A stretch of DNA of 64,000 nucleotides. Source: Phycisphaerae bacterium. Lineage in GTDB: Bacteria; Planctomycetota; Phycisphaerae; Sedimentisphaerales; Anaerobacaceae. This document shows positions 2,741 to 24,431 of this stretch, in pieces. The DNA lies in the NCBI GenBank assembly GCA_012744475.1, contig JAAYBV010000053.1, forward strand, positions 1 through 64,000, read 5' to 3'. Position numbers and translations under genes: made by a program. The notes beneath the pieces are model-generated. The model made no database searches. It saw only the letters and a program-made list of their open reading frames with translations, and was not told where the DNA came from. Position 1 is the first letter of the stretch; every line of letters begins with the position of its first letter.

Positions 2741-2762
2741 ATGGGCCGGGTTGGATTCGAAC
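2741..2762. repeat. attL: 22-bp direct repeat of the tRNA-Tyr 3' end
   Basis: Positions 2741-2762 are identical to 24228-24249, which includes the T-arm and 3' acceptor of the intact tRNA-Tyr gene. The core reads ATGGGCCGGGTTGGATTCGA plus AC. This copy has no tRNA 5' part beside it, so it is the displaced 3' end left by integration. The two copies bound a 21.5-kb element with its integrase beside the other copy. Confidence 0.93.
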
Positions 2763-2962
2763 ATGCCCCACTGGCGCCGTCAAAACCCGCGATTTCGAGC
2801 AGCGAGAGTGCGCCAAACTACACACCGCGCGCACCGGACAGCACACCTGACCCCGACTTGGCTCAGATCGTGGCGGCCTGGCCGGACCTGCCGGACGATG
2901 TGAAGCGGAACATCCTGCACCTGGTCAAGAGCCACAGGCCGACCCCTGGGACGCCCGGATAG
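2741..2962 (+). pseudogene. Detached C-terminal tail of the element's integrase
   Basis: From the ATG inside the att core this frame reads MGRVGFE, the same seven residues that end the homologous part of the integrase at 22989-24248, and then 66 more residues before a stop. The tail ends 'DPDLAQIVAAWPDLPDDVK' and 'RNILHLVKSH', which I recognise as a usual C-terminus of planctomycete tyrosine integrases. When the element is circular the two halves join in frame into a 486-residue integrase. In the integrated state the segment has no promoter of its own and is probably silent. The join is read directly; the function of the tail is inferred. Confidence 0.8.
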
Positions 2963-7007: not shown

Positions 7008-7736
7008 TCAATATGTCCATGTCTCATGGGCGAGCGGAGCGCGATTAAGTGCTTCCTTGTGCAGTCGCCACTGGGGCATGAACCGATCCATGTGGTCTCT
7101 GAAGCGGTCGGTGTGATGTCGCTCCAGGAGGTGTACCATCTCGTGCACAATGATGTACTCCAGGCACGCCGAAGGCTTCTTCGCCAGTTCGAGGTTGACC
7201 CAGATCCTGCGGTCCGAGATGTTGCATGTCCCCCACCGAGTCTTCATTCTCTTGATGCCCCACGCGGCGACCTTCACCCCCACTATCGGCTCCCACTTGG
7301 CGATCAGTCCCGGAATCTGCTCTCGCAGGCGCCTGCGATACCAGCGGTGGAGCACGGCCTCCCGCCTCTCTCTACCAGTTCCCGGCGGCACTCGCAGCCT
7401 CAAGGTGGTGTTGTTCGGCAGACAGATGCCTGCCGGCCCCGGATGCTCCACTACATCGAGCCGGTAACGCCGGCCCTGTACATAGTGGCTTTCACCCGTA
7501 ATCATCTCGCGTTCGGATTGGCGATCCTGCTCTTCAAAGCCCCTCTTCTGCCGACGAATCCACCCCAAGCGCGAAATCACAGCAAGCCGGACAGCTTCGT
7601 CGTCAAGACGCAACGGCACGGCCACGCGAACCCGACCCTTCGGTGGGTAAACGGCTACGTGGAGGTTCTTAATGTCCTTGCGGACAACGTCCACGGTCAT
7701 GCCTCGCACTTCGATACTGTGCCGCTCAGTAGTCAC
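7008..7736 (-). CDS. YgjP/WLM-like zinc metallopeptidase linked to type I restriction
   Basis: A 242-residue protein with the zinc motif HEMVH (198-202) and the preceding 'MKTRWGTCNISDRRIWVNL' block that typifies the YgjP-like (DUF45, SprT-related) metallopeptidases. These very often lie directly after hsdR. The frame extends upstream into hsdR, but a GTG at 7736 with RBS GGAG 7 bp away, 11 bp overlapping the hsdR stop, is the likely start; an ATG at 7700 is the alternative. The substrate is unknown; known relatives are thought to process or protect DNA-protein complexes. Confidence 0.8.
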   Translation of the reverse strand: MTTERHSIEVRGMTVDVVRKDIKNLHVAVYPPKGRVRVAVPLRLDDEAVRLAVISRLGWIRRQKRGFEEQDRQSEREMITGESHYVQGRRYRLDVVEHPGPAGICLPNNTTLRLRVPPGTGRERREAVLHRWYRRRLREQIPGLIAKWEPIVGVKVAAWGIKRMKTRWGTCNISDRRIWVNLELAKKPSACLEYIIVHEMVHLLERHHTDRFRDHMDRFMPQWRLHKEALNRAPLAHETWTY

Positions 7737-10700
7737 GTTGGCTCTCCACGATCCTGTAGATCGCGTCCACAAGTCCCTCGTCGTCGCCGATCGCAGAACG
7801 GATTGCGTTGCGAACCTCGATCCGCTTGGCGCGCATGCCCCGCCAGTCGTCCTTCTTGATGCTCCGGATGGCGGTATCGACCTGAACCGCCAGTTGTTCA
7901 TCCTGGTCCAGGTTGTCGTACAGGGCACGGCGCGCCGGGCTGTTGATGCTGGCCGGGTATGACGATTGGCTCTCCGGCTTGCTCACCCTCTTGGTCAATT
8001 CGACGATCCTTGCCAGATACGCCTGGTAGTCCAGCGCCTCTTTCTTGCGTGTCTGGATCAGGGCATCGAGCAGTTCCGACATTTTCTCGTAGTACTTCGG
8101 GTTGACGGCCATCTCGTCGATGATGAGCCTGCGGACGTTGTTCTCAATCGTCTCGGCCATTGCCTCGGGGTTCTGGCGGATGCCCGCCGGCAGCGCCTCG
8201 ACCGCGCCCTCGCCGCGTTCGACGATCAACTGCACGAGTGTCACGTCGTCAAAAGCCGACACCTTTTCACTCTCCTCCGCCCGGATGTACATGTCCAGCA
8301 GATACCGCATGGCCGGTTCGTACATCTTCATGTCAATGTAGTCCCCGCTGGCCAGCTTCACCTCATCCCGCACCTTCCCGTAATAGTCCACTTCCGCCTT
8401 GATCTCCTTGGCTTCCTCTTCCGAGTATCCAGCCTCGACAATCTCATTGGCCAGGTTGGCATAGGCCCGCAGGAATGCCCCGGCCAACTTGTAGAGCGCC
8501 ACGCGCTTCGGCTCGTTGTCCTTCAATTGCTGAGCATTGCCGCTTTCGGCGGCACAGAAGAACCGGACATAGGCCGCCGTATCTCGCGGCGGCTCCACCG
8601 GCTCACACAGCGCCTTGATCGATTCACGCACCTCCTCCAAACGCTCCCGGCCCGTTGCCAGCCGATCCTTCAACAATCCCGCAACATCCTCGGCATCGTA
8701 GCCCTCGAAGGCCTCCCCCGTGTAGTCTTTGATCGATTTCTCCAGCGACTTGAACAGGTCTTTGTAGTCGATGATGTAGCCGTACTCTTTGTCATCGCTA
8801 TCGAGGCGGTTGACGCGACAGATCGCCTGGAACAGCCCGTGATCCTGCATCTGCTTGTCGATGTAGAGACAGGTCGCCGGCGGCGCATCGAAGCCGGTCA
8901 GCAACTTGTCCACGACGATCAGCAGCTTCATCTGGCCCGGTTCTTTGACAAACCGCTTCTTGACCTCCTTCTCGAACGTCTCGACCTTGTACATGGCCGA
9001 CTCTTCGGGCTCGTTGAAGTGCGCCGCGAGCATCTTGCGGTAAATCTCGTACTGCCGCAGCTTCTCGGTCATCCCCTCGCCGCTTTCCTCCCCCTTGATA
9101 TCGGCCGGTCCCGGCCGGTACGAGGTAATGATTGCGCACTTGCCCGCCAAGTCGGTCTTCTGGAACATCTCAAAGAACTGGCAGGCCGAATAGATGCTCC
9201 CAGAGATCAGCAGCGCGTTGCCATACCCACTCTTGAGACGGTCCCGCGTCTCCATATCCATCAAGATATCGGAGACGATCTTCGCCAGGCGATCCCGCGC
9301 GCTGAGCACCTTCTGCATCGTACCCCAGCGCTGCTTAAGCTGCGCCTTGGCCAGGTCAGTCAAGCCTTTGGTTTTGCTCTCGAACCACTGGTCGATCTTC
9401 TCCTGCGACGTGATGCTCTGGTCGATATCGCGGGCCTCGTACTTCAGGTCCAGCACGACCTTGTCGGCAACCGCCTCGTCGTACTTGTACGTGTGGATGT
9501 AGGGACCGAAGACCTCGATGCTCTTCTGCTTGTCCTTCTTCAGCAGCGGCGTCCCCGTGAACCCGATCAGCATCGCCCCCGGCAACAGCGTTTTCATCGC
9601 CTCGTGCAGCTTGCCCGACTGGGTGCGGTGGCACTCATCCACAAAGACGAAACTCTCGCCCTTGGCGTAGAATCCCTTCGGCAGACTCTTCTTGATCTCC
9701 TCGACGTAGACGTCGATGTCCTTATCGCTCGCTTCTTCGCCCGCGCCGAACTTGTGGATCAGCGAGCAGACCAGCCATTCCTCGCTCATGTTGAGCACCC
9801 GCACCAGGTCCGCTCCGCTTTTCGTTCGGTAGATGTCCTCGCTGACACCGTTGAAGCGCATCTCGATCTGGTCGTCCAACTCTGTCCGGTCGGTAATGAC
9901 CAGAACACGAGCATCCTTCACGTTCTCACGCAGCCACTTGGCCAGCCAAATCATGGTCAGCGTCTTGCCGCTGCCCTGCGTGTGCCAGATGATTCCGCCC
10001 TCGCGCCGTTTGATGTATTGTTGGGCGGCACGGACACCGAAGTATTGATTGTGCCGGCAGGTCTTCTTGGTCCCGGCATCGAAGACGATGAAATCGTGGA
10101 CGATCTCCAGCAGGCGATCTTTGCGACAGATCTGGCTCAGTTCGCGTAGCAGTGGATTGTCGCCGGCCGCCGGATGAGCGTCCTTTTCCTTCCACCGCAG
10201 ATAGTACCTTTCCGGCGTCTCGATCACGCCGTAACGCAGGCCCTCGGTCTCGTTACCCGCCATCACGAACTGCACCGTCGCATAGAACGGCCGGATGAAC
10301 TCCTTCTTCTGGCTGTCCAAGTTCTGCCGAATACCTTCGGACACGGACACCGTCGAGCGCTTCAACTCCAGCACACCCATCGCGATCCCATTGACGTACA
10401 GCACCACGTCCGGCCGCTTGGTGTGCTCGCCCGCGACCGTCACCTCCTCGGCGACGGCGAAGTCGTTGTTCTCGGGATTCTCCCAGTCGATTAGCCATAC
10501 AGTAACGTTCTGCTCACCAACGTCCGGTCGTACCTTCACCCCGTATCGCAGCAGGCCGTACACCTCGCGATTGGCGTCGTAGAGCGTCTTGCTGCCGCTC
10601 AGTGCCCGGGCCTTGCCCAGTTGGTACAGCACCTTGCCGATGATCTTGTCGTCGTGGCCCTGTCTCTTGAGCCATTTGGCGAGCAGCTCTTCCTCGACGT

Positions 10701-10815
10701 TGCTGTTGCCGTCACGGTCCTTCCAGTAGCCCAGATAGCTGTACTCCAATGCGTTCAGGAAGAACTCAACCACCCGCTTCTGCGTTCTCGCTTCCTTTTC
10801 GCCTACCATACTCAT
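7726..10815 (-). CDS. hsdR: Type I restriction endonuclease subunit R
   Basis: A 1029-residue motor and nuclease subunit of a type I restriction system, which translocates DNA using ATP and cuts at a distance from the target. A PD-(D/E)XK nuclease is seen at D136 and E150-L-K152 ('RPDVVLYVNG', 'MGVLELKRS'). The helicase has Walker A GSGKT (281-285), Walker B-like DECHR (393-397) and 'FTGTPLL' (motif III). The long upstream frame is spurious: translation starts at ATG 10815 (MSMVGEKEAR), 16 bp after the stop of the preceding gene. Length is normal for the family, and no key residue is missing. Confidence 0.93.
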   Translation of the reverse strand: MSMVGEKEARTQKRVVEFFLNALEYSYLGYWKDRDGNSNVEEELLAKWLKRQGHDDKIIGKVLYQLGKARALSGSKTLYDANREVYGLLRYGVKVRPDVGEQNVTVWLIDWENPENNDFAVAEEVTVAGEHTKRPDVVLYVNGIAMGVLELKRSTVSVSEGIRQNLDSQKKEFIRPFYATVQFVMAGNETEGLRYGVIETPERYYLRWKEKDAHPAAGDNPLLRELSQICRKDRLLEIVHDFIVFDAGTKKTCRHNQYFGVRAAQQYIKRREGGIIWHTQGSGKTLTMIWLAKWLRENVKDARVLVITDRTELDDQIEMRFNGVSEDIYRTKSGADLVRVLNMSEEWLVCSLIHKFGAGEEASDKDIDVYVEEIKKSLPKGFYAKGESFVFVDECHRTQSGKLHEAMKTLLPGAMLIGFTGTPLLKKDKQKSIEVFGPYIHTYKYDEAVADKVVLDLKYEARDIDQSITSQEKIDQWFESKTKGLTDLAKAQLKQRWGTMQKVLSARDRLAKIVSDILMDMETRDRLKSGYGNALLISGSIYSACQFFEMFQKTDLAGKCAIITSYRPGPADIKGEESGEGMTEKLRQYEIYRKMLAAHFNEPEESAMYKVETFEKEVKKRFVKEPGQMKLLIVVDKLLTGFDAPPATCLYIDKQMQDHGLFQAICRVNRLDSDDKEYGYIIDYKDLFKSLEKSIKDYTGEAFEGYDAEDVAGLLKDRLATGRERLEEVRESIKALCEPVEPPRDTAAYVRFFCAAESGNAQQLKDNEPKRVALYKLAGAFLRAYANLANEIVEAGYSEEEAKEIKAEVDYYGKVRDEVKLASGDYIDMKMYEPAMRYLLDMYIRAEESEKVSAFDDVTLVQLIVERGEGAVEALPAGIRQNPEAMAETIENNVRRLIIDEMAVNPKYYEKMSELLDALIQTRKKEALDYQAYLARIVELTKRVSKPESQSSYPASINSPARRALYDNLDQDEQLAVQVDTAIRSIKKDDWRGMRAKRIEVRNAIRSAIGDDEGLVDAIYRIVESQRDY

Positions 10816-10831
10816 AGCGTCCGACTCCGCA

Positions 10832-11332
10832 TCAGTCACCGTACTGACGGTCCAGGTATGCACGAATGCCCTGGTTGCTCCACTCCATCGCTTCCGAATA
10901 GACGTGCGACTCCAGAAGATAGTCCACGATCGCGATATCGCGTACGGGATCGGCGCTCCGGTCCTCTGGTGGTTCGTCCTGCCACTCTTGCGCCTCGCGT
11001 GTCTGCAGCCAGACCGCCGCCTTTTCGTGGGAAGCCAGGTCCTCCACATGGCCGCTGACGATGGCTCGCACCGTCTCATCGTAGGCGAACCAGAAGGCCG
11101 ATTTCTCATATTGGAGCTGCACACAGATTTCGTCCCACGTGTTCGCCAGTCCGGAATCGTCCCCTGACATCAACTCCTTCATGGACTGAAGATGCGCAAT
11201 GACCTTTCTCGTAATGCGATCGCAGATGGCCTCCGCGAATCGCTCGATCACAGCAGACTCCGACAAGGCTCCCATCAGCGCCCCTCCGATTGCATAAATG
11301 GCCTCTGCCTCACGGCGCGACTCTCCCGCCAT
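10832..11332 (-). CDS. Hypothetical protein between AlbA_2 gene and hsdR
   Basis: A 166-residue mostly helical protein with no motif I recognise. It includes 'AIGGALMGALSESAVIERFA' near the start and 'VRDIAIVDYLLESHVYSEAM' near the end. It sits 16 bp before hsdR on the same strand and 62 bp after the AlbA_2 gene, so it is transcribed with the restriction genes. Small helical proteins at this place in type I clusters may act as specificity or anti-toxicity partners, but nothing here proves it. Confidence 0.65.
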   Translation of the reverse strand: MAGESRREAEAIYAIGGALMGALSESAVIERFAEAICDRITRKVIAHLQSMKELMSGDDSGLANTWDEICVQLQYEKSAFWFAYDETVRAIVSGHVEDLASHEKAAVWLQTREAQEWQDEPPEDRSADPVRDIAIVDYLLESHVYSEAMEWSNQGIRAYLDRQYGD

Positions 11333-11394: not shown

Positions 11395-13053
11395 TCATTC
11401 TGCGAGCCGCCACTCCGGAGTCTTGCGCGGGCCAGTATTTCTGATGCGTCCGCCCCGTCGCCACTTGGTAATCAGGTTGCTTATCTTGTTTCTTTTCTGC
11501 TCGTCATCCAGGGCATCGCTCAGCTTGTTCCAGAGCAGCTTGTCGATATCCTGCCGCGAAGCCTTGCCGAATTTCTCCAGAAAGTCAGTGACCAGCTTGC
11601 CGTAAAATGCGTCATCCTGTGCTCGGGTCCGGATATAGTCGGCCTTGCTCTCTGTCGCCTTCGCCACCACGGCAGAAACATGCAGATTGGGTTTGCGCCC
11701 CTCGATCAACCCCGCACGGCGCAAGCGTTTCACCATCGCATCGTCCACCAGCAAACGCTTCTGCACACGATCCAAGGCCACGATGTCTGCCAACGGCAGA
11801 TCTGTCTTCTGCATCAGCAGGCGTGTGTATGCGGGATTGACAATACTGCCATACACGGTCATCCGCACCACGCTCGGCTCGTGCAGGTCGTAGTCCGGCA
11901 TCGGAAAATAGCGTCGCGCTTGCCCTACGTGCATTTCGTGAATGCCGTATCCCATGGTGTCGATCATGTTCAGTTCCGTCATCGCTTGAGCCAAAAATGG
12001 GTTGCGGTAACGGCGGGGTGTCCTATGGCCCGTGACGTAGTCGTCCGGCTGACCCTCGAAGAAGTTCCCCTCATTCTCGAAAACCAGTCGGTCGGGCCGC
12101 TCTGTAACAACGATGCGGCCATTGCGGATGTAGTCCTGATGGGCGATGCAGTTGTGCAACGCTTCGAGCACCACCTTGCGATCGTACTTGGCCATCTCCA
12201 CGGCCAGCAGGGCATCGTCAGGCAGAATACGGATCTGGATGTTGCGAATCCTCTGGTACAGCACAGATGTGTTCAGCAGAAATGGCGGACCAAAGTGTTC
12301 GTAAGCCCGCTCCGGTCCCTCCAGGCTCCAGGTCATCTGAGCCGGATGGGGTAGCAACAGATGCGCCGACTCTGATTTGCCCAGTAACAACACGGCAGCA
12401 CGCGTCAACTTGCCGTCACGTGTCAGGCGTGCGCGATCGAGAAACGCCTCCAGTGGCCAGTTCTTCACTTCGTTGGCCTTGAACCGGTTTGCGTACTTCG
12501 TGGCAAACGACTCGCGCGCCTGCAACACGGCAGATTCATCGAGGTGGCTCAATATGGCGTCGGGGACTACACATGCAGACCAGTCCGCTGCTGTCGTCTG
12601 TTTCCGTATCTCATCCAGCTTGTCCAACCCCAGGCTGGTCAGGCTTTCCCCTGCCCGAGCGTAATAGTGGCCTGTCCAGGCAATGGGCATCCCTGAAGGG
12701 GCAGCGGGAATCTCGAATAGGACGACGCGGCCATCAGGATGGTGCAATTCGTGGATGTTGCGGAAAGTGACGCTGGGCTCGGTGCCCTGTGCAATCTGCA
12801 TTTTCAGACTCTGAAGTCGCTCTGCCTGCAACCGATAGTCTGATCCCACCACGGCACGAGACGTGTTGTTGACCCCGAATACGAGCCAAGCGCGCTCCTC
12901 ACCTCGCAAGTTGGCTTCGTTTGCCAGCGCCGAGAAATACTTGCCGATGTCCGGTGTCGAATAATCGCACTGCGCCTGCTTGAACTCCACGACCTCGCTT
13001 TCCCAGGCGACGAGCAGCTCCTCAAGGACTTTCATGAGATGCGCCTGATCCAT
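11395..13053 (-). CDS. AlbA_2 (Schlafen-like) ATP-binding transcriptional regulator-type protein
   Basis: A 552-residue protein. The N-terminal 'ESEVVEFKQAQCDYSTPDIG' and 'GEERAWLVFGVNN' blocks are the AlbA_2 (Schlafen) domain. 'ALHNCIAHQDYIRNGRIVVT' and 'RLVFENEGNFFEG' match the GHKL-like C-terminal part of the RecG-like/COG2865 family, and the tail (about 440-552) looks like winged helices. Such proteins recur between hsdS and hsdR in type I clusters and may regulate or add anti-phage function. RBS GGAGG lies upstream, overlapping the end of the HsdS-like fragment. Confidence 0.85.
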   Translation of the reverse strand: MDQAHLMKVLEELLVAWESEVVEFKQAQCDYSTPDIGKYFSALANEANLRGEERAWLVFGVNNTSRAVVGSDYRLQAERLQSLKMQIAQGTEPSVTFRNIHELHHPDGRVVLFEIPAAPSGMPIAWTGHYYARAGESLTSLGLDKLDEIRKQTTAADWSACVVPDAILSHLDESAVLQARESFATKYANRFKANEVKNWPLEAFLDRARLTRDGKLTRAAVLLLGKSESAHLLLPHPAQMTWSLEGPERAYEHFGPPFLLNTSVLYQRIRNIQIRILPDDALLAVEMAKYDRKVVLEALHNCIAHQDYIRNGRIVVTERPDRLVFENEGNFFEGQPDDYVTGHRTPRRYRNPFLAQAMTELNMIDTMGYGIHEMHVGQARRYFPMPDYDLHEPSVVRMTVYGSIVNPAYTRLLMQKTDLPLADIVALDRVQKRLLVDDAMVKRLRRAGLIEGRKPNLHVSAVVAKATESKADYIRTRAQDDAFYGKLVTDFLEKFGKASRQDIDKLLWNKLSDALDDEQKRNKISNLITKWRRGGRIRNTGPRKTPEWRLAE

Positions 13054-13184: not shown

Positions 13185-14120
13185 TTACCCCTTCGTCAGC
13201 TTGAAGCTCACCTGGTATCGGTAGAAGTCGATATTGCTGGCCGCCTGGAGGGCGCGGCGCAGCCGCAGGTCATCTTCCATCGCGATGATAACGCCGCGCA
13301 CCGTTTGGCCTGGTTCGGCCAGCTCCTCGATCACATAGCCCATATACCGCTGAATCTGGCCCACCACCACGTCGCTGGCCCGGCCCTTTTTCAACTCAAC
13401 CACCAGCAGTTCACGCTTGTCCTTACTGACGGCAAGGATATCCATCGGTCCCGTGTCGCTCGGGTACTGCTGGCCGACCAGCTCGCCTTCTTCCTCGAAG
13501 ATGTCGTAGGAGCTGCCAAGGACAGTCCCGGCCCAGTTCTGCACGAGGAAATCCTCCAGGTGGCTCTCCAGGGCAAAGGCCTGCGGGTCTTCCACGTCGG
13601 CATCGCTGGCAATCAAAGCCGGCGGAGTTTTCCCGGATCGAAGGCCTTCTATTTCGTCGGCATATTTGCTGATGTTGCTAACCGTCCCGGCCGACCCGGC
13701 GGAGTTCTTCAACTCCTGGCTCATCTCCTCGCGAGCGATGAGGTCCTCGCACCACCGGACATCCCGGCAATGCGCCAGGGACCTCTCGGGTCTGTACTGG
13801 TAATCCGATGTCACCTCCCCGACATAGTAGGCTCCGCTGCCATTCGGACACAGCACGACGTCACCGATCCCCATCCCTCTACAGACCGTATGGAGCATCC
13901 CGCAGGCCAATCCCGCCGCCACCTTCGACTTGTCCGGATGCCTTTCAAGGTAGATGGGTACAAACTGCCTGTTGAACTCGCGCCAATTGTCTGGGAGTCT
14001 GCCCGTCAGGTCGATGTCGGCCAACCAGCCGGCCCCGATGTACCCTTCTGCATGGCACTCGGCGGCGCGGATGCTCCCCTTGTCGGCCATGATCCGGTAG
14101 TACTTTTTCGCTGGTATCAT
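13185..14120 (-). CDS. Nuclease with NucS/PD-(D/E)XK-like C-terminus and PUA/EVE-like N-terminus
   Basis: A 311-residue protein. The C-terminal half has 'LEDFLVQNWAGTVLGSSYDI' and 'GPMDILAVSKDKRELLVVEL' followed by KKG: an E...D...ExK nuclease core as in NucS/DUF91 enzymes. The N-terminal 130 residues ('GMGIGDVVLCPNGSGAYYVG') resemble a PUA/EVE-like reader domain, as in some Mrr-type restriction proteins. The ATG overlaps the hsdS stop as ATGA. Together this suggests an auxiliary restriction enzyme that senses modified or marked DNA; that role is inferred. Confidence 0.75.
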   Translation of the reverse strand: MIPAKKYYRIMADKGSIRAAECHAEGYIGAGWLADIDLTGRLPDNWREFNRQFVPIYLERHPDKSKVAAGLACGMLHTVCRGMGIGDVVLCPNGSGAYYVGEVTSDYQYRPERSLAHCRDVRWCEDLIAREEMSQELKNSAGSAGTVSNISKYADEIEGLRSGKTPPALIASDADVEDPQAFALESHLEDFLVQNWAGTVLGSSYDIFEEEGELVGQQYPSDTGPMDILAVSKDKRELLVVELKKGRASDVVVGQIQRYMGYVIEELAEPGQTVRGVIIAMEDDLRLRRALQAASNIDFYRYQVSFKLTKG

Positions 14121-15277
14121 TTCGTTCCCTCCGCTTTCACCAACCGGATGCGGCCGGTCAGGAGTTGTTGCATCATGCCCTGCTTGATCTGCTTGGTCTT
14201 GTCCCGCCGACGCTCCAACGCCGCGATCTCCGCGTCCATGTCGGACAGGACGGCAGTGATGGCCTGCTGCTCTCCCACCGATGGGACAAGAAAATCTCGC
14301 TCCTTCAAGAACTTGAAATGCCTATTATAGCCGGTGGGCTCGATGCCAGAGTGCTGAAGCTGATAGGCGTAAAAGCGCGTACATCCATCTGCCTTGGCCA
14401 GAAGTACCTGTGTTCCATCTGCTCCGACCACGAAATCAAAATCGACGAACTTCACAATGCAGGTATGGTCGCCGAAAACGATGACTCCACCACTAGGACA
14501 TGGCAAGTGCTTATCGGAGCGGTCTGAGAACCCAATCACAAGTTCTTGGCCTTGATCGATAACAGGATACCGTCCCAGACTCGCGTAGTCGCGTGCCTGG
14601 ATCTGGTGAGCTTTCACGTTGAGCCTTGTCAGAACAGCGGCGAACGGCTTCGTTTCCCACGTTCCGGTGAAGCCGGGGAGGCGGGTTTTGCCGGTGAGCA
14701 GTTGCTGCATGGCGGCCTGCCGGATGGCCCGCTTCTTGGCAATCAGCGCCTCCAACGCCCCGAGCAACCCATCCACATCCGACAACGCCTCCGCAATGGC
14801 CTGCTGTTCGTGAATCAGCGGGACTGGGATGAGCATGCCCGCGATCATCTCCATGCGAACCGAGTCAACGGATGACTTGGCTGTCATAGACATGATGCGG
14901 TCGTAGAAACGAGTGCTGAACTGATAGAAGAAATAGAGGCCATCCAGGTGGTCGGAGAACTCGGTTATCCGGTAAACACGCTGATGTACATCAAATCGAC
15001 CGTTGATGTAGTGAAAGACTTTGCCAGTCCCAACACCGTCGCCAGCCGTGAGGACTGCTTCACCTTCATAGGAATATGAGTTGATCCGTTCGACCTGTTG
15101 CGACCGGACGAAGAAGGGATACTGGCCGTCATCTACCCGATCCTGCGTATTCCTCGATCCAGTCTTAATGGAAGCGTGATCGTCAATGCGTGCCAGACTC
15201 CAATCCTCAGGAATCAGGCCCACCTCTGTCTGCTTGTATCCTTTGGGAGCCTTGGGTTGTGCCACGCTCTCGCTCAT
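14117..15277 (-). CDS. hsdS: Type I restriction-modification specificity subunit S
   Basis: A 386-residue specificity subunit with the usual two target-recognition domains (about 20-150 and 215-335), each followed by a conserved helical region. The repeats 'AIAEALSDVDGLLGALEALI' / 'MQQLLTGKTRLPGF' and 'AITAVLSDMDAEIAALERRR' / 'MMQQLLTGRIRLVKAE' show the internal duplication typical of HsdS. The first TRD fixes one half-site and the second the other; the target cannot be read from the sequence. An ATG at 15283 is possible, but the ATG at 15277 forms ATGA with the hsdM stop. Confidence 0.9.
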   Translation of the reverse strand: MSESVAQPKAPKGYKQTEVGLIPEDWSLARIDDHASIKTGSRNTQDRVDDGQYPFFVRSQQVERINSYSYEGEAVLTAGDGVGTGKVFHYINGRFDVHQRVYRITEFSDHLDGLYFFYQFSTRFYDRIMSMTAKSSVDSVRMEMIAGMLIPVPLIHEQQAIAEALSDVDGLLGALEALIAKKRAIRQAAMQQLLTGKTRLPGFTGTWETKPFAAVLTRLNVKAHQIQARDYASLGRYPVIDQGQELVIGFSDRSDKHLPCPSGGVIVFGDHTCIVKFVDFDFVVGADGTQVLLAKADGCTRFYAYQLQHSGIEPTGYNRHFKFLKERDFLVPSVGEQQAITAVLSDMDAEIAALERRRDKTKQIKQGMMQQLLTGRIRLVKAEGTK

Positions 15278-17715
15278 GCCCACACCAGCCCCATGTTCTT
15301 CAGGTGACCTTCCACCTTTTCGCTGAACGCTTCAACCTCCCGTTCCAGTTCGGGCAGTGGTCGGGCGTAGCGTTCTTCCAGTTCCGTAACCCGACCGGCA
15401 AGTTGCTGTGCCAGTCGCTGGACCTCGCCCTCGATGGCGGTCTGGATGGAGGCGAGCCACTTGTCTTCGACGACCAGCGTCTTGATCTCGGCCTCGCTGA
15501 GCTTGGGGTACTTGGCCAGCACCTGCTTGTCGAGTTCTTCCTGCAAATCCTTGACGGCCTTCTTCGCAAGCGATTCGGCATCGAGCAGTTGGGCGCACGT
15601 CTCCAGGGCCTCGCGTTCGTCGGCGAACTCAGGATCGTCGCCGATCTCGTTGAGCCGGGCGTTGACGCCGGTCTTGCTGGCCTTGCCCTTATCGTTGGTG
15701 GCGTCTTCGAGCAACCCCTCTTCGCCCGTGTTCTCCTCGACGAACTCCTCCAGCATGCGCATCGCCTCGTCGAGCCTGGCCTGGGCCTCGTCGATGGCGG
15801 CCTGCTCTCTGACGAAGTAGCGGGCGACGATCAGGGCCGGTGGCAGCAGGTCCATCTTGTACTTCTTGCGTTTGACCGTCAGGTCCGGCGTCTCCTTGAT
15901 CTTCCGCTCCTTGTCGTCGATGACGGCACGGGGCTGGGCCGCTTCTACCCACCCATCGGCGGCGATCAGGTAGACGTCGTCCTGCATCACCTCGGCCCAG
16001 TAGTCCATCAGCCGCTGGTACACATCGTACCGGTCGAGCAAGGGAACATCGGCGAAGCGGACGAGCAGGTCTTCCGACAGCCTGTGGATCACTTCCTTGG
16101 GCTTATCGTTGACCTTCAGCCCTTTCAGGAGCAGCTCATGGGCCTTGCGCCACTTGGCGTAGAGGGCAGCGACCCTGGCGGCATAGGCCTTGAACTCGTC
16201 ATGATCGCCGATAGTGGCCTTGACCTTCTGCGTTTCGACGCGCGGCTCGCAATAGCCCTTGCGGCCGTTGTTCTTGAACAGGGCCTTCCGCAGGGAGGGG
16301 AACACCAACCAGTACACCTCCAGGGCGTCGATGTCGCAGTTGGGGATGCCGCCGTTGAGGTGGGCATCGAGATCGTGCAGGTCCTCCGGCTCGGACGGGT
16401 CGATGTAGCGCGGAATGTTGAGGTTGTAGTCGTTGGCCGGACTGGCGATCTCGGCCACGGGGACCATGCGCGAATAGCGCGCCAACTCCCGCTGGTGGTT
16501 GAACACATCGACGATCCTGTGGATGTCCTGGGCGCGGAGGCGGTTCTTGTTACCGTCCTTGACGAAGCCCTTGGAGGCGTCGATCATGAAGATGCCGGTG
16601 CGGGCGTGGGCGTTCTCCTTGTCGATGATGACGATGCAGGCGGGGATGCCTGTACCATAGAAGAGGTTGGCGGGCAGGCCGATGATCCCCTTGATGAGGC
16701 CGCGATGGATGAGGTTGCGGCGGATGTCGGCTTCCTTATTGCCGCGAAAGAGGACGCCATGCGGCAGGATGATCGCGCCCTTGCCCTTGCTCTTGAGCGA
16801 TTTTATCAGGTGCAGCAGGAAGGCATAGTCGCCGTTCTTGGCCGGCGGGACGCCGTACTCGAAGCGGCCAAACTCGTCGTTGGTGGGATTGAGACCATTG
16901 GACCAGGCCTTGGACGAGAACGGCGGATTGGCGACGGCAAAGTCAAACGTCTTCAGTCCGCGATCCGTTGTGAAGTGCGGCGCGGCCAGCGTATTGCCCC
17001 GCCACAGGTCGGCCGTCGGATGGCCGTGCAGGATCATGTTCATCCGGGCCAAGGCCCAGGTGGCGACGTCCATCTCCTGCCCGTAGATCGTGATGCGGCG
17101 TGGCGCTTCGTCGGCGGCCTTGAGCAGCAGCGAGCCGGAGCCGCAAGTCGGGTCGTAGATGGTATCGCTGGGCTGGGTCTGCGGGCCGACGCCGACGACC
17201 TTGGCCATGATCCGCGAGACCTCGGCGGGCGTGTAGAACTGGCCTTTGCTCTTGCCGCTCTCCGTGGCGAAGTGCCGCATGAGGTACTCGTAGGCGTCGC
17301 CAAGCAGATCGTCGCCCTCGGCCCGATTGGCGCGAAAGTCCAGGCCGTCGAAGATCGCCACGAGCTTGGAGAGGCGGTCAACCATGTCCTTGCCGCTTCC
17401 GAGCTTGTCTTCGGCGTTGAAGTCGGCCTGGTCGATGACACCCTTGAGATCGTTGGCCTCGGCGAGCTTGCCGATGATCTTGTTGATCTTATCGCCGATC
17501 TCCTTGTCGCCCTTGAGCTTGACCATGTCGGCAAAGCCGCCGCCTTTGGGCACGTCAATGACGGCGTCGCTCTTGCCGGCGTACTTGTCCGAGACGTACT
17601 TCATGAACAGCAGCGTCAGGATGTAGTCCTTGTACTGCGAGGCATCCATGCCGCCGCGCAGCTCGTCGCAGCTTTGCCACAGCGAGCTGTACAGTTGTGA
17701 TTTCTTCAGAGCCAT
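15274..17715 (-). CDS. hsdM: Type I restriction-modification methyltransferase subunit M
   Basis: An 813-residue N6-adenine methyltransferase subunit. It has the N-terminal HsdM helical domain ('QLYSSLWQSCDELRGGMDAS'), AdoMet motif DPTCGSGS (188-195) and catalytic NPPF (263-266). The C-terminal third is a long charged helical extension (from about 640), so it is longer than classical HsdM. The ATG at 17715 follows RBS GGAAGG. It is the first gene of the defence cluster, and the cluster promoter should lie in 17716-17778, where I see no strong consensus. Confidence 0.93.
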   Translation of the reverse strand: MALKKSQLYSSLWQSCDELRGGMDASQYKDYILTLLFMKYVSDKYAGKSDAVIDVPKGGGFADMVKLKGDKEIGDKINKIIGKLAEANDLKGVIDQADFNAEDKLGSGKDMVDRLSKLVAIFDGLDFRANRAEGDDLLGDAYEYLMRHFATESGKSKGQFYTPAEVSRIMAKVVGVGPQTQPSDTIYDPTCGSGSLLLKAADEAPRRITIYGQEMDVATWALARMNMILHGHPTADLWRGNTLAAPHFTTDRGLKTFDFAVANPPFSSKAWSNGLNPTNDEFGRFEYGVPPAKNGDYAFLLHLIKSLKSKGKGAIILPHGVLFRGNKEADIRRNLIHRGLIKGIIGLPANLFYGTGIPACIVIIDKENAHARTGIFMIDASKGFVKDGNKNRLRAQDIHRIVDVFNHQRELARYSRMVPVAEIASPANDYNLNIPRYIDPSEPEDLHDLDAHLNGGIPNCDIDALEVYWLVFPSLRKALFKNNGRKGYCEPRVETQKVKATIGDHDEFKAYAARVAALYAKWRKAHELLLKGLKVNDKPKEVIHRLSEDLLVRFADVPLLDRYDVYQRLMDYWAEVMQDDVYLIAADGWVEAAQPRAVIDDKERKIKETPDLTVKRKKYKMDLLPPALIVARYFVREQAAIDEAQARLDEAMRMLEEFVEENTGEEGLLEDATNDKGKASKTGVNARLNEIGDDPEFADEREALETCAQLLDAESLAKKAVKDLQEELDKQVLAKYPKLSEAEIKTLVVEDKWLASIQTAIEGEVQRLAQQLAGRVTELEERYARPLPELEREVEAFSEKVEGHLKNMGLVWA

Positions 17716-17778
17716 CCAGCGCCTTCCCAAGGGACCTCCGCTGCCGCACATTTCGGCTTACCCTCCGTCGCCGAAGCG

Positions 17779-20497: not shown

Positions 20498-22030
20498 ATG
20501 ATCCTCAACGTCCCCCACGACGAAGCTGCTGAAGCGGCGGTGCTCGGCTCGATGATCGTGGATTCGCGATGCATCCCCGCCGTACTCGCAAGCGGGCTGT
20601 CAGTAGAGGATTTTTACCTTTCTGAACATAGGGAAATCTTCGCCGCCATCCTTTCCGCACACGATCGCATCCAATCGAACGGCGACGGCCACGTGGACGG
20701 CCTGCTCGTGCGCGAAGAATTGGAGCGTCGCAAGACGTTGGACAAAATTGGCGGCACGGACTACTTACAGCAAGTCACGGACACGGTCCCATCGGCGGCC
20801 AACATTGGGTACTACGCGGGCATCGTCCGGGACCGCCACGTCCGACGTCTGATGCTCGCTGCTGGCGAGAAACTGTTGCGGGGCGCTACCGATCTGGCAC
20901 AGGACGTCGGCGAAGAGGTGGCAGGCGCTCGTATGGATTTGGCTGAGATCGTGAGCCCCCAACACGACACCGCGCCCAACATTGAAATCATCAACGCCGC
21001 AACGTGGCTGACGTCCGAGCCACCCGCGTGCGACCAGATTCTCGCGGATACGGTCGATCGTGGCGACAAAACGGCGATCATTGGATCAAGCAAACTACGC
21101 AAAAGCTTCTTTCTCCTTCAACTGGCTCTATCCATCGCCAGTGGTAGGGATTTTCTTGGATGGTCCGTGCCGCAGTTCCGGCGTGTGTTACTTGTCCAAT
21201 TGGAAGTCCAACAGCATCACTTTCACCGCCGTGTCCGGCGGATGGCGGCGGCTCTGGAGCTGACGCCGGAGGACCTTGAAGACCGCTTACTCATCATCAA
21301 TGCGCGCGGTCTTGGCCTGTCCGGCGCCGCCGGGATTGAGGCGATTCGGGCCACCGTCGAACCATTCATGCCGGAGCTGATCGGCTTTGACCCGTTGTAC
21401 AAGCTCGCTACGGGGGCGGAGAACGCCGCCGAGGATATGAAGGTAATTCTTGGTCTCTTTGACCAAGTGACAGAGCAGACCGGAGCGGCGGTCCTCTACG
21501 TCCATCACGATGCCAAGGGATTCTCCGGCGACAGGGACATCCGGGACCGGGGAGCGGGCTCCAACGTCCTCAGCCGGGATTACGACGCGGCCTTTGCCCT
21601 GACCCCGCACTCAGTCGAGGACGATGCCGTCGTCGTCGAGACCCTGTTGCGGAACTACGCGCCCCAGCAGCCGATGACTATTGGCTGGGTAAATGACCTG
21701 AACGGCGGCTACTGCTTCGGCCCCCGCCCTGACCTGGCGGCGACAAAAAAAACCAGCACGACCGCTCGGGCGAAGGATAACGTCTCGTTCGAGACATGCC
21801 ATCCCATCGCCCTACAGTTGGTGAAGGCTGGCCCCATGCTGATCGGCGAATTTAAGGACATTCTGAGAGAGAAGACCGGCGTCGGTCAGAAGCGAATCGA
21901 CAGGTACGTTCGATGGGCGTTGACCAAGGGCGAAGAGCCTCTGGACGTGCTTGAGCAACGATCTAAAGGCAGGCATGAAAAACGGATCGGAACGCCAACC
22001 CAAATTCAACGTTTGCGGGAACAAGAATGA
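20498..22030 (+). CDS. RepA-like ATPase with DnaB N-terminal domain
   Basis: A 510-residue protein. Residues 1-125 match the DnaB helicase N-terminal domain ('DEAAEAAVLGSMIVDSRCIP', 'GGTDYLQQVTDTVPSAAN'). Residues 185-400 form a RecA-type (AAA_25/RepA) ATPase with Walker A GSSKLRKS (196-203) and Walker B 'LIGFDPLY'; 'AVLYVHHDAKGFSGDRD' is the RepA motif that follows. The C-terminus is a winged-helix-like region. The combination suggests an element replication helicase, supported by the iteron-like repeats directly downstream. The Walker A has SSK where the usual form is (A/P)xK. Confidence 0.8.
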   Translation: MILNVPHDEAAEAAVLGSMIVDSRCIPAVLASGLSVEDFYLSEHREIFAAILSAHDRIQSNGDGHVDGLLVREELERRKTLDKIGGTDYLQQVTDTVPSAANIGYYAGIVRDRHVRRLMLAAGEKLLRGATDLAQDVGEEVAGARMDLAEIVSPQHDTAPNIEIINAATWLTSEPPACDQILADTVDRGDKTAIIGSSKLRKSFFLLQLALSIASGRDFLGWSVPQFRRVLLVQLEVQQHHFHRRVRRMAAALELTPEDLEDRLLIINARGLGLSGAAGIEAIRATVEPFMPELIGFDPLYKLATGAENAAEDMKVILGLFDQVTEQTGAAVLYVHHDAKGFSGDRDIRDRGAGSNVLSRDYDAAFALTPHSVEDDAVVVETLLRNYAPQQPMTIGWVNDLNGGYCFGPRPDLAATKKTSTTARAKDNVSFETCHPIALQLVKAGPMLIGEFKDILREKTGVGQKRIDRYVRWALTKGEEPLDVLEQRSKGRHEKRIGTPTQIQRLREQE

Positions 22031-22548: not shown

Positions 22549-22851
22549 GTGAACATCTACAAACCTATCGCAGACCCCGCGCCGGAGCCGCTGCTGGTCA
22601 ATGCGAAGCAGGCGGGCCGAATGTTGAGCGTGTGCGAACGTACGATCTTCAATCTGGTCGGGCGGGGCGAGCTGAGGCCGATTCGCATCGGCAAGAGCAT
22701 TCGGTTCTCGATCGAAGACCTCAAGGCGTGGATCGCGCGACAGCAGAACAAATCTCAAAACCCGAAAGATTGTCTTAGACTTGGCGTCGGACGAAAAGTA
22801 CAATATGAGTATGGCGAAGACCAGAGCACGCATGGGAAGGCCGCCGATTGA
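22549..22851 (+). CDS. Excisionase-like HTH_17 protein
   Basis: A 100-residue protein starting at GTG with RBS GAAGGAG. 'LLVNAKQAGRMLSVCERTIF' then 'NLVGRGELRPIRIGKSIRFS' and 'IEDLKAWIARQQ' is the canonical HTH_17/Xis arrangement: a helix-turn-helix with a short wing. The gene lies 440 bp upstream of the integrase and overlaps the RHH-like gene, so it is the likely directionality factor for excision. Confidence 0.85.
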   Translation: MNIYKPIADPAPEPLLVNAKQAGRMLSVCERTIFNLVGRGELRPIRIGKSIRFSIEDLKAWIARQQNKSQNPKDCLRLGVGRKVQYEYGEDQSTHGKAAD

Positions 22852-23020
22852 CCCGAAAGACCTGCGGGGACGCCGGGTGACACTTCGGTTCACCACGGCG
22901 GAGTTCCGGCAGTTGGCGCGGGACGCGAAGCTGGCGGGAGTGGCCGTAGGCGAGTTCCTCAGGCAGTGTTGGCGAAAGGAGCACGATCGTGGCGACGGTT
23001 GCGAGAACGAAATCAGGTAG
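22805..23020 (+). CDS. Small RHH-like or mobilisation-type protein
   Basis: A 71-residue protein. 'RGRRVTLRFTTAEFRQLARD' followed by 'AKLAGVAVGEFLRQCW' resembles a ribbon-helix-helix unit as in relaxosome accessory proteins (MobC-like). It overlaps both the excisionase gene and the integrase start, so the three are co-translated. A TTG at 22781 could also start it. It may assist recombination or conjugative transfer. Confidence 0.65.
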   Translation: MSMAKTRARMGRPPIDPKDLRGRRVTLRFTTAEFRQLARDAKLAGVAVGEFLRQCWRKEHDRGDGCENEIR

Positions 23021-24257
23021 CCGGCGAATCCTGTACGTGGACCCCCGAGACGGACAGCGCAAGACTCTCTGGCTTGGGCAATGCTCCGAGCGGGTGGCAC
23101 AGGGAGTCTCGGGCAAGTTCCAGGACCTGTTGAACGCGATAGCCTTGGGAATGCCCGTCGATCCCGACGTGCTCCGTTGGCTCGACAAGCTGTCCGATGA
23201 GTTTCACGGCAAGCTGGCGGACACCGGTCTTGTGCCGCCGCGACAGACGGCCCGCTTGGGCGAGTTCCTAAACGGCTACCGCGACAGCCGGACGGACCTC
23301 AAGTCGCAGACCCGCGTTCACATGGGCCACGCGATCCGCAACTTGATCGACTTCTTCGACGAACAGAAACCCCTGCGGGACGTGAGCGAGCAGGATGCTC
23401 GGGAGTTCCGCAACTACCTCGTCGAGCAGAAGCTTGCCGAAGCGACGATCCGGCGCCGAACGGGGTTGGCTCGCCAGTTCTTCACGGTCGCACGGAAACG
23501 CAAGCTGATTCCGGCGAACCCGTTCAAACAAGATGGCCTTCCGACATCGGTAGGCGGCAACGCCAGCCGGCGGTTCTTCGTTACCCGCGAGATGACCGAG
23601 CAAATCCTCCAGGCATGCCCGGACGCGGAGTGGCGGCTGTTGATCGTCCTGGCCCGCTACGGCGGCCTCAGAACGCCAAGCGAGAGTCTGCGTCTCCGCT
23701 GGCGGGACATCGACATCGAGCGAAAGCGGTTCACGGTGACCAGCCCGAAGACGGAGCACCACGCCGGCCACGAAAGCCGAATCGTGCCGCTGTTCTGGGA
23801 AGTGGCGGAGGCGCTGGACGAGGCGTTCACGACGGCACCGGAGGGAGCCGAGTTCTGCATCACCCGCTATCGGCTCAACAACCTGAACCTCAGAACGCAG
23901 TTCCAGCGGATCATCAAGAGGGCCGGGCTGCAACCCTGGCCCCGGCTGTGGCAAAATCTTCGATCCAGCCGCCAGTCGGAATTGTGCGGGGACTTCCCCG
24001 AGCACGTAGTCTGCTCGTGGCTGGGCAACAGCAAGGCGGTGGCCCGAGAGCACTACCTGCAAGTCCGTGAGAGTGACTTCGAACGGGCCGTCGAGAGAGT
24101 GCGCAGCGCTACACACTCCCTGCACGAACCACCATGTACCACCATGCAGGCCCCCCCCACGGAAGGCCATGAAAACGCGGATTTGGCGCATGACACCCCC
24201 CTGTGCATGACCATGCAAACAGGGGGGATGGGCCGGGTTGGATTCGAACCAACGTAG
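22989..24257 (+). CDS. Tyrosine-family site-specific integrase
   Basis: A 422-residue recombinase starting at GTG (RBS AAGGAG). It has an N-terminal SAM-like core-binding domain (about 88-180) and a catalytic domain with 'YGGLRTPSESLRLRW' (R228), 'LWQNLRSSRQSEL' (R325/R328 in place of the usual HxxR) and 'WLGNSKAVAREHYLQV' (nucleophile Y356). The Leu-Arg-Ser-Ser variant is normal in planctomycete integrases. The last nine codons lie in the att core and the tRNA-Tyr gene, so the C-terminus depends on the integration state. It probably integrated the element that carries it. Confidence 0.93.
   Translation: MATVARTKSGSRRILYVDPRDGQRKTLWLGQCSERVAQGVSGKFQDLLNAIALGMPVDPDVLRWLDKLSDEFHGKLADTGLVPPRQTARLGEFLNGYRDSRTDLKSQTRVHMGHAIRNLIDFFDEQKPLRDVSEQDAREFRNYLVEQKLAEATIRRRTGLARQFFTVARKRKLIPANPFKQDGLPTSVGGNASRRFFVTREMTEQILQACPDAEWRLLIVLARYGGLRTPSESLRLRWRDIDIERKRFTVTSPKTEHHAGHESRIVPLFWEVAEALDEAFTTAPEGAEFCITRYRLNNLNLRTQFQRIIKRAGLQPWPRLWQNLRSSRQSELCGDFPEHVVCSWLGNSKAVAREHYLQVRESDFERAVERVRSATHSLHEPPCTTMQAPPTEGHENADLAHDTPLCMTMQTGGMGRVGFEPT
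24228..24249. repeat. attR: 22-bp direct repeat inside tRNA-Tyr
   Basis: Identical to 2741-2762. It spans the 3' end of the intact tRNA-Tyr gene and the end of the integrase frame. Integration at a tRNA 3' end, with the gene restored by the element's own copy, is the standard behaviour of this integrase class. Confidence 0.93.
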
Positions 24258-24311
24258 GCTCACGCCAACGGGTTTACAGCCCGTTCCCTTTAGCCACTCG
24301 GGCACCGACCC
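24229..24311 (-). tRNA. tRNA-Tyr (GUA anticodon)
   Basis: On the minus strand this 83-nt gene has acceptor arms GGGTCGG/CCGGCCC with a G-U pair, a long variable arm as expected for tRNA-Tyr, T-loop GTTCGAATC and anticodon GTA in the loop CTGTAAA. The discriminator is A, and no CCA is encoded. It is intact only because the element supplied the last 22 bp. It serves as the attachment site. Confidence 0.93.
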
Positions 24312-24431
24312 AAACGCTTGTCAACCTCTTAAGTCGCCGAAACCATTATTAGACGAAAAACCGCGTGCCTTGTCAACCTCTGGCTGGCGATTTTCTTCGT
24401 CCAGCCAAGCGTCCGGCTGGTTTCGCGAGAC

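Follow-up and report, generated by a model that had tools for sequence, protein, structure and literature searches.

Does a mobile element alter its own integrase by the act of integrating? This question is raised by a genomic island in a 64,000-nucleotide stretch of a Phycisphaerae bacterium (the whole stretch is called the window here), where the integrase gene runs through the attachment (att) site and ends inside a tRNA gene. Control over reversal by integrases is usually put down to accessory factors and regulation. Here it may be built into the gene itself; if this is true, the product of the reaction removes a domain.

The island and the two ends of its integrase

The window contains two exact copies of a 22-nt direct repeat, ATGGGCCGGGTTGGATTCGAAC, which form the sole such pair found across the organism's own genome. 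They bound a stretch with the makings of a tRNA-targeted genomic island: an integrase gene, an intact tRNA at one end and a displaced tRNA fragment at the other (Table 1). Between positions 7726 and 17751, AlbA/Schlafen-like and NucS-like genes sit among those for HsdR, HsdS and HsdM, an arrangement that constitutes a mobile defence island. No syntenic empty site was found in genomes of the same genus, although both island flanks are present there. Close-relative scans of viral contigs gave no paired circular copy of the island, and phage and plasmid collections gave no close relative.

Table 1. Coordinates of features in the window
Feature	Position	Strand	Remarks
Island, att to att	2741-24249	.	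Exact repeat at ends; gene content
attL core, 22 nt	2741-2762	+	Copy of displaced tRNA 3' end; exact repeat
Detached integrase 3' end: core, linker and tail domain (PDLAQIVAAWPDLPDDVKRNILHLVK)	2741-2962	+	Stop 2960-2962; tail profile match; coding-level conservation
Candidate arm-type site, right arm, GAGAGTGCGC-N4-CTACACAC	2804-2825	+	Inside tail coding sequence
HsdR, type I restriction-modification (cargo)	7726-11124	-	
AlbA/Schlafen-like protein (cargo)	11395-13053	-	
NucS-like nuclease (cargo)	13185-14120	-	
HsdS, type I restriction-modification (cargo)	14117-15283	-	
HsdM, type I restriction-modification (cargo)	15274-17751	-	
DnaB-N/AAA helicase (cargo)	20498-22030	+	
Excisionase-family HTH_17 protein (probable Xis)	22549-22851	+	Directly upstream of integrase
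Short NikA-like protein	22820-23020	+	Overlaps integrase start; PF21983 27.3 bits, cut-off 27: borderline
Tyrosine integrase, integrated state, 422 aa	22989-24257	+	Ends inside tRNA-Tyr 3' end; catalytic domain intact
Candidate arm-type site, left arm, GAGAGTGCGC-N4-CTACACAC	24095-24116	+	Inside integrase coding sequence
attR core, 22 nt	24228-24249	+	3' end of tRNA-Tyr; integrase codons 414 onwards; exact repeat
tRNA-Tyr (gta), integration target	24226-24312	-	

The integrase open reading frame points at the tRNA, crosses the core and closes after 422 codons with the sequence ...GGMGRVGFEPT. At the distal copy of the core, the same frame reads MGRVGFEHAPL...DPDLAQIVAAWPDLPDDVKRNILHLVKSHRPTPGTPG and reaches a stop at codon 74, having run 66 codons past the shared heptapeptide. 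The circular form of the element should encode 413 + 73 = 486 residues, compared with 422 for the integrated form. An initial annotation of this locus had given these coordinates, both lengths and the shared frame; the translated reading frame, the exact repeat and the translation of the distal copy bear it out. Its central claim, that integration swaps the C-terminus of the integrase, is well supported by the att pair, the in-phase tail and the relatives discussed below. We regard this architecture, in the window and in its relatives, as almost certain.

The enzyme is a tyrosine recombinase. It matches PF00589 (3.8e-10) and has the conserved R...K...R...Y series, with the HxxR motif replaced by NxxR; R228, K254, R325, W344 and Y356 are invariant in 28 aligned sequences. 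The core lies downstream of the active-site tyrosine, and all catalytic residues are retained in the integrated form.

Reading frames through the core among relatives

Relatives were gathered from 16 loci in species genomes and from the phylum, where 152 of 392 genomes have a match, with up to about 57 kb of upstream sequence taken for good matches. Many are metagenome assemblies. The integrase frame enters the tRNA in 55 of the 61 related integrases that face a tRNA within 700 nt, for which composition predicts 9.4; these and the following counts treat elements as independent, and some share a genome or ancestry. The read-through relatives span 11 kinds of tRNA. The other two frames are open into the tRNA in 20 and 10 of the 61, and the integrase stops before the tRNA in six. 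Chance open frames in G+C-rich DNA were considered as a source of this pattern and are ruled out by the composition expectation and the other-frame controls. Relatives whose integrase ended before the att core would have spoken against the annotated swap; for the most part the integrases of relatives run into it.

Within the genus, the nearest integrase (68% identity; G402 contig 1, 4915276-4916535) faces a tRNA-Met rather than a tRNA-Tyr. Its frame likewise enters the tRNA, which amounts to a change of target. No distal copy of at least 13 nt was found for this element within 58 kb, in a scan that is blind to repeats extending left of the tRNA.

Distal copies were chosen by repeat length alone (at least 17 nt) for elements in which the integrase overlaps the tRNA, which gave 29 elements; repeats extending left of the tRNA were included and brought in L052, L058 and L063. 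The integrase frame remains open for at least 40 codons past the distal repeat in 26 of the 29, compared with 11 of the 58 other frames (Fisher 2e-10). When cases with shorter repeats or no tRNA call are counted too (L052, L072, L088, L092, L105 and one each in G403 and G405), an in-frame tail is present in 33 elements. The tRNA end is read in all three frames (GFEP, RIRT and EDSN), and the tail frame matches that of its own integrase. Because this same-frame continuation recurs across different islands at many different tRNAs, chance is excluded. A long tail is absent despite a distal repeat in L066, L094 and L103, where either the repeats are wrong, or the elements have decayed, or a tail is not always needed.

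These counts bear on the idea that the tail is a functionless by-product, arising because attP adjoins int and high G+C content keeps the frame open. Long open frames do arise in G+C-rich DNA, and a few elements seem tail-free. Against this, read-through is about six times expectation, it is mainly the matching frame that is open, and at many tRNA targets and in all three frames the tail shows conservation at the protein level. We consider a by-product very unlikely.

In two tandem arrays, one on G216 contig 39 (L069 and L061) and one on G405 contig 21 (L279-L281), the inner integrase appears to be out of frame with the following tail at the core. Since the two are in different core frames, tandem neighbours would be unable to provide one another with a tail. 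In the viral contig L136 (841-1000), the core is tRNA-like and the integrase frame reads GLEP, with the tail motif in another frame; this contig may hold a junction of two elements, a frameshift or an assembly error. The mismatches in both arrays and in L136 fit junctions between different elements.

Virus records contain the gene uninterrupted. Terminal direct repeats of 119 nt and 80 nt, as in circular assemblies, occur in L120 and L128 respectively; both records carry full-length integrase genes with the tail, around cores that are tRNA-like only loosely. In L112 (44-nt terminal repeat), integrase and tail are joined with no clear tRNA core. The tail is in frame in L131, whose core agrees with the end of a tRNA-Val in 23 of 25 positions, and in L125, whose core is tRNA-Ser-like. 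L127, whose DNA is 82% identical to that of L125 across 1300 nt, is found integrated at a tRNA-Ser, and its gene ends in the tRNA. Two further records, G395 and G396, were tried as circles on the strength of circular permutation; their lengths fit and their ends do not match, so only records with terminal repeats were used as circles.

A break of frame at the junction would have told against the annotation. None occurs at the core-like segment in L120, L123/L125, L128 or L131, and L136 is the contrary case. The core thus lies inside the open reading frame, past the active-site tyrosine, with the frame open on both sides, as in phage Mx8; for the window this layout is obtained by joining two halves, and for the relatives it is read directly in virus records. 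It is hardly credible, on this evidence, that the tail represents a small gene of its own, abutting the att site by chance and made alone in the integrated state. The window core does start with ATG in the tail frame. However, distal copies do not in general have a start codon in the core, the same-frame link to the integrase over the core recurs, and unintegrated records show integrase and tail as one contiguous stretch.

The tail domain and the candidate arms of attP

A profile built from 16 tails and searched against all fetched sequence has its matches mainly at distal att sites and in integrase genes that are uninterrupted. The motif, 26 residues long, is found in more than 20 elements, and tails outside the profile set (L088, L074, L092, L072, L079, L093 and L062) are matched at 1e-8 or better. 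The tails of L080, L085, L086, L100, L102, L105 and L107 do not match it. In L080, L085, L086, L100 and L102, which form one genome group, a shorter SPAxxAVVxWLxSxPEG-like tail replaces the usual hairpin motif.

Among 23 aligned motifs, variation is greatest at third codon positions and least at second. The BLOSUM62 score per column is 1.62 in the integrase frame, whereas the remaining two frames give 0.00 and -0.04. This comparison answers positively whether the extra tail is conserved in relatives, a check that the annotation had proposed, and indicates constraint at the coding level. Judged by that constraint, the tail is a real part of the protein.

An AlphaFold2 model of the natural full-length L120 protein (28 sequences, single chain, hence silent on contacts between subunits) gives pLDDT above 90 for most of the catalytic part. 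Residues 381-460, which cover the att-encoded part, are disordered, and 458-494 form a helical hairpin (block pLDDT 73-94). The tail motif is thus predicted to be a helical hairpin, in which a Trp and a Leu are conserved, carried on a disordered linker. Foldseek relates the integrase body to the Tn1549, XerA and lambda integrases.

Folded C-terminal modules on disordered linkers are a common means of turnover control. The predicted module might therefore set the stability or dose of the integrase, for instance by marking it for degradation or capping it against breakdown, and would then change turnover or amount and not the choice of reaction. In contrast to what such a role would suggest, the hairpin is conserved and the last residues are not: tail ends vary widely (TPGTPG, KAGR, VQD, DAQ), with no common degradation tag seen by eye. 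A stability switch seems improbable to us.

Different C-terminal arrangements occur in two further cases. In the integrase of L144 (10001-11431), the peptide VINPT occurs three times after the catalytic part, with copies to either side of a core-like segment; here repeated DNA sites show as a repeated peptide. Most of the related viral integrases L160-L189 end directly past the active-site region (DWAKADL), with neither linker nor tail, and they are a natural tail-less outgroup.

Direct repeats across the core exceed shuffles in 28 of 34 elements (p at most 0.05, 40 shuffles), and inverted repeats reach the shuffle significance level in none of the 34. The typical repeat consists of an 8-nt unit, for example GCGGCGCA, present twice with a few bases between. 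In the window, the arms share a 10-nt direct repeat (shuffle p 0.025), and the 8-nt second half was read by eye. These repeats resemble arm-type sites, and the attP arms appear to lie within coding sequence.

The probable Xis gene next to the window integrase matches PF12728 (1e-10), scores above the cut-off of TIGR01764 and falls in the excisionase family phrog_66. An Xis-like gene is present within 2.5 kb in 26 of the 55 read-through relatives. The NikA-like protein might point to mobilisation or to integrase regulation.

A proposed directional switch and its known counterparts

The explanation that we favour places the whole of attP, with its left arm, tRNA-derived core and right arm, within the 3' portion of the integrase gene. 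In the circle, this gene should run from the catalytic domain through an attP-encoded linker to a tail domain that is small and helical. When the core recombines, the tail is parted from the rest and comes to lie at the far end of the element, kilobases from the resident gene, which then ends within the tRNA. This much is shown by the sequence. The full-length integrase, made from a circle or from incoming DNA, would be the integrating form, and its tail probably helps to build or hold the attP-attB complex via protein contacts. Integration would halt production of the long form and leave a short integrase with every catalytic residue, which could carry out excision together with the neighbouring Xis-like protein. 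Excision would rejoin the gene and bring back the integrating form. With no added regulator, each state would favour the step that follows it.

Taken as a whole, the architecture together with this explanation seems to us rather probable. The directional role itself is plausible and has, in our estimate, about an even chance of being right. The same weight, poised midway between belief and doubt, attaches to a broader reading: a phylum-wide integrase family with a dedicated, detachable C-terminal hairpin domain set by integration state, in which DNA rearrangement would serve as the directionality factor and attP would be doubly constrained, having to recombine and to code for the linker while tRNA target and frame changed repeatedly. 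More than 30 natural elements, a 26-residue motif and both protein forms given by sequence make the idea directly testable, and the element set holds natural controls in its tail-less and out-of-frame cases. The explanation also accounts for the odd tRNA-derived ends on such integrases and offers an extra signature for island mapping.

The SSV1-type archaeal integrases (PMC8371274) likewise have the attachment site in the integrase gene, which is altered by integration. There, the gene is fragmented, the enzyme is lost and excision is precluded without an intact gene. By analogy, loss of the tail could inactivate the window integrase, making integration a one-way lock that is opened only by full-length enzyme from another copy. 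Unlike SSV1-type fragmentation, integration in the window removes a C-terminal add-on located beyond the active-site tyrosine and leaves the catalytic domain whole. Moreover, the Xis-like genes upstream in about half of the integrated elements would serve no purpose if the elements could not excise, and PMC6070905 reports that the altered integrase of Mx8 is not inactivated. A suicide integrase is an unlikely reading of the window.

Integration also feeds back on int in ICEKp1, where promoter switching (PMC13023037) alters int expression and favours one direction. That switch acts on the 5' promoter, whereas the change in the window is at the protein C-terminus. The favoured switch would be run by an enzyme resembling the heterobivalent integrases of lambda and Tn1549 in fold, in its Pfam catalytic and SAM-like domains, in its Xis-like partner and in the direct-repeat, arm-like sites around the core. 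Lambda differs in that its attP is not part of the coding sequence and its enzyme is unchanged by integration.

The nearest parallel in layout is the Myxococcus phage Mx8, with attP within the coding sequence of int, a new int 3' end upon integration, a T-arm-like peptide (STGLEP) well before the C-terminus and an excisionase gene (uoi) preceding int. In PMC6070905, the Mx8 arrangement is called a molecular switch, and the altered integrase keeps its activity with changed specificity. The Islander paper (PMC4383910) describes the Mx8 and SSV integrases as extending across attP; the two Mx8 forms, IntP and IntR, go back to Tojo 1996 and Magrini 1999 as cited in both sources. Mx8 Int has no detectable similarity to the window integrase (BLASTP best E 2.3, spurious), and an AWPxLP-like hairpin motif was not seen by eye in the Mx8 tail. 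The window integrase would work like Mx8 Int, and homology between the two is shown no further than the superfamily. With Mx8 already built in this way (PMC6070905, PMC4383910), a state-dependent integrase is not a novelty in principle. Mx8 was the report of a one-host phage, whereas the elements studied here form a phylum-wide family with a conserved tail. As far as the mostly open-access literature shows, what is new is this Planctomycetota family, its conserved detachable domain and its freedom of frame.
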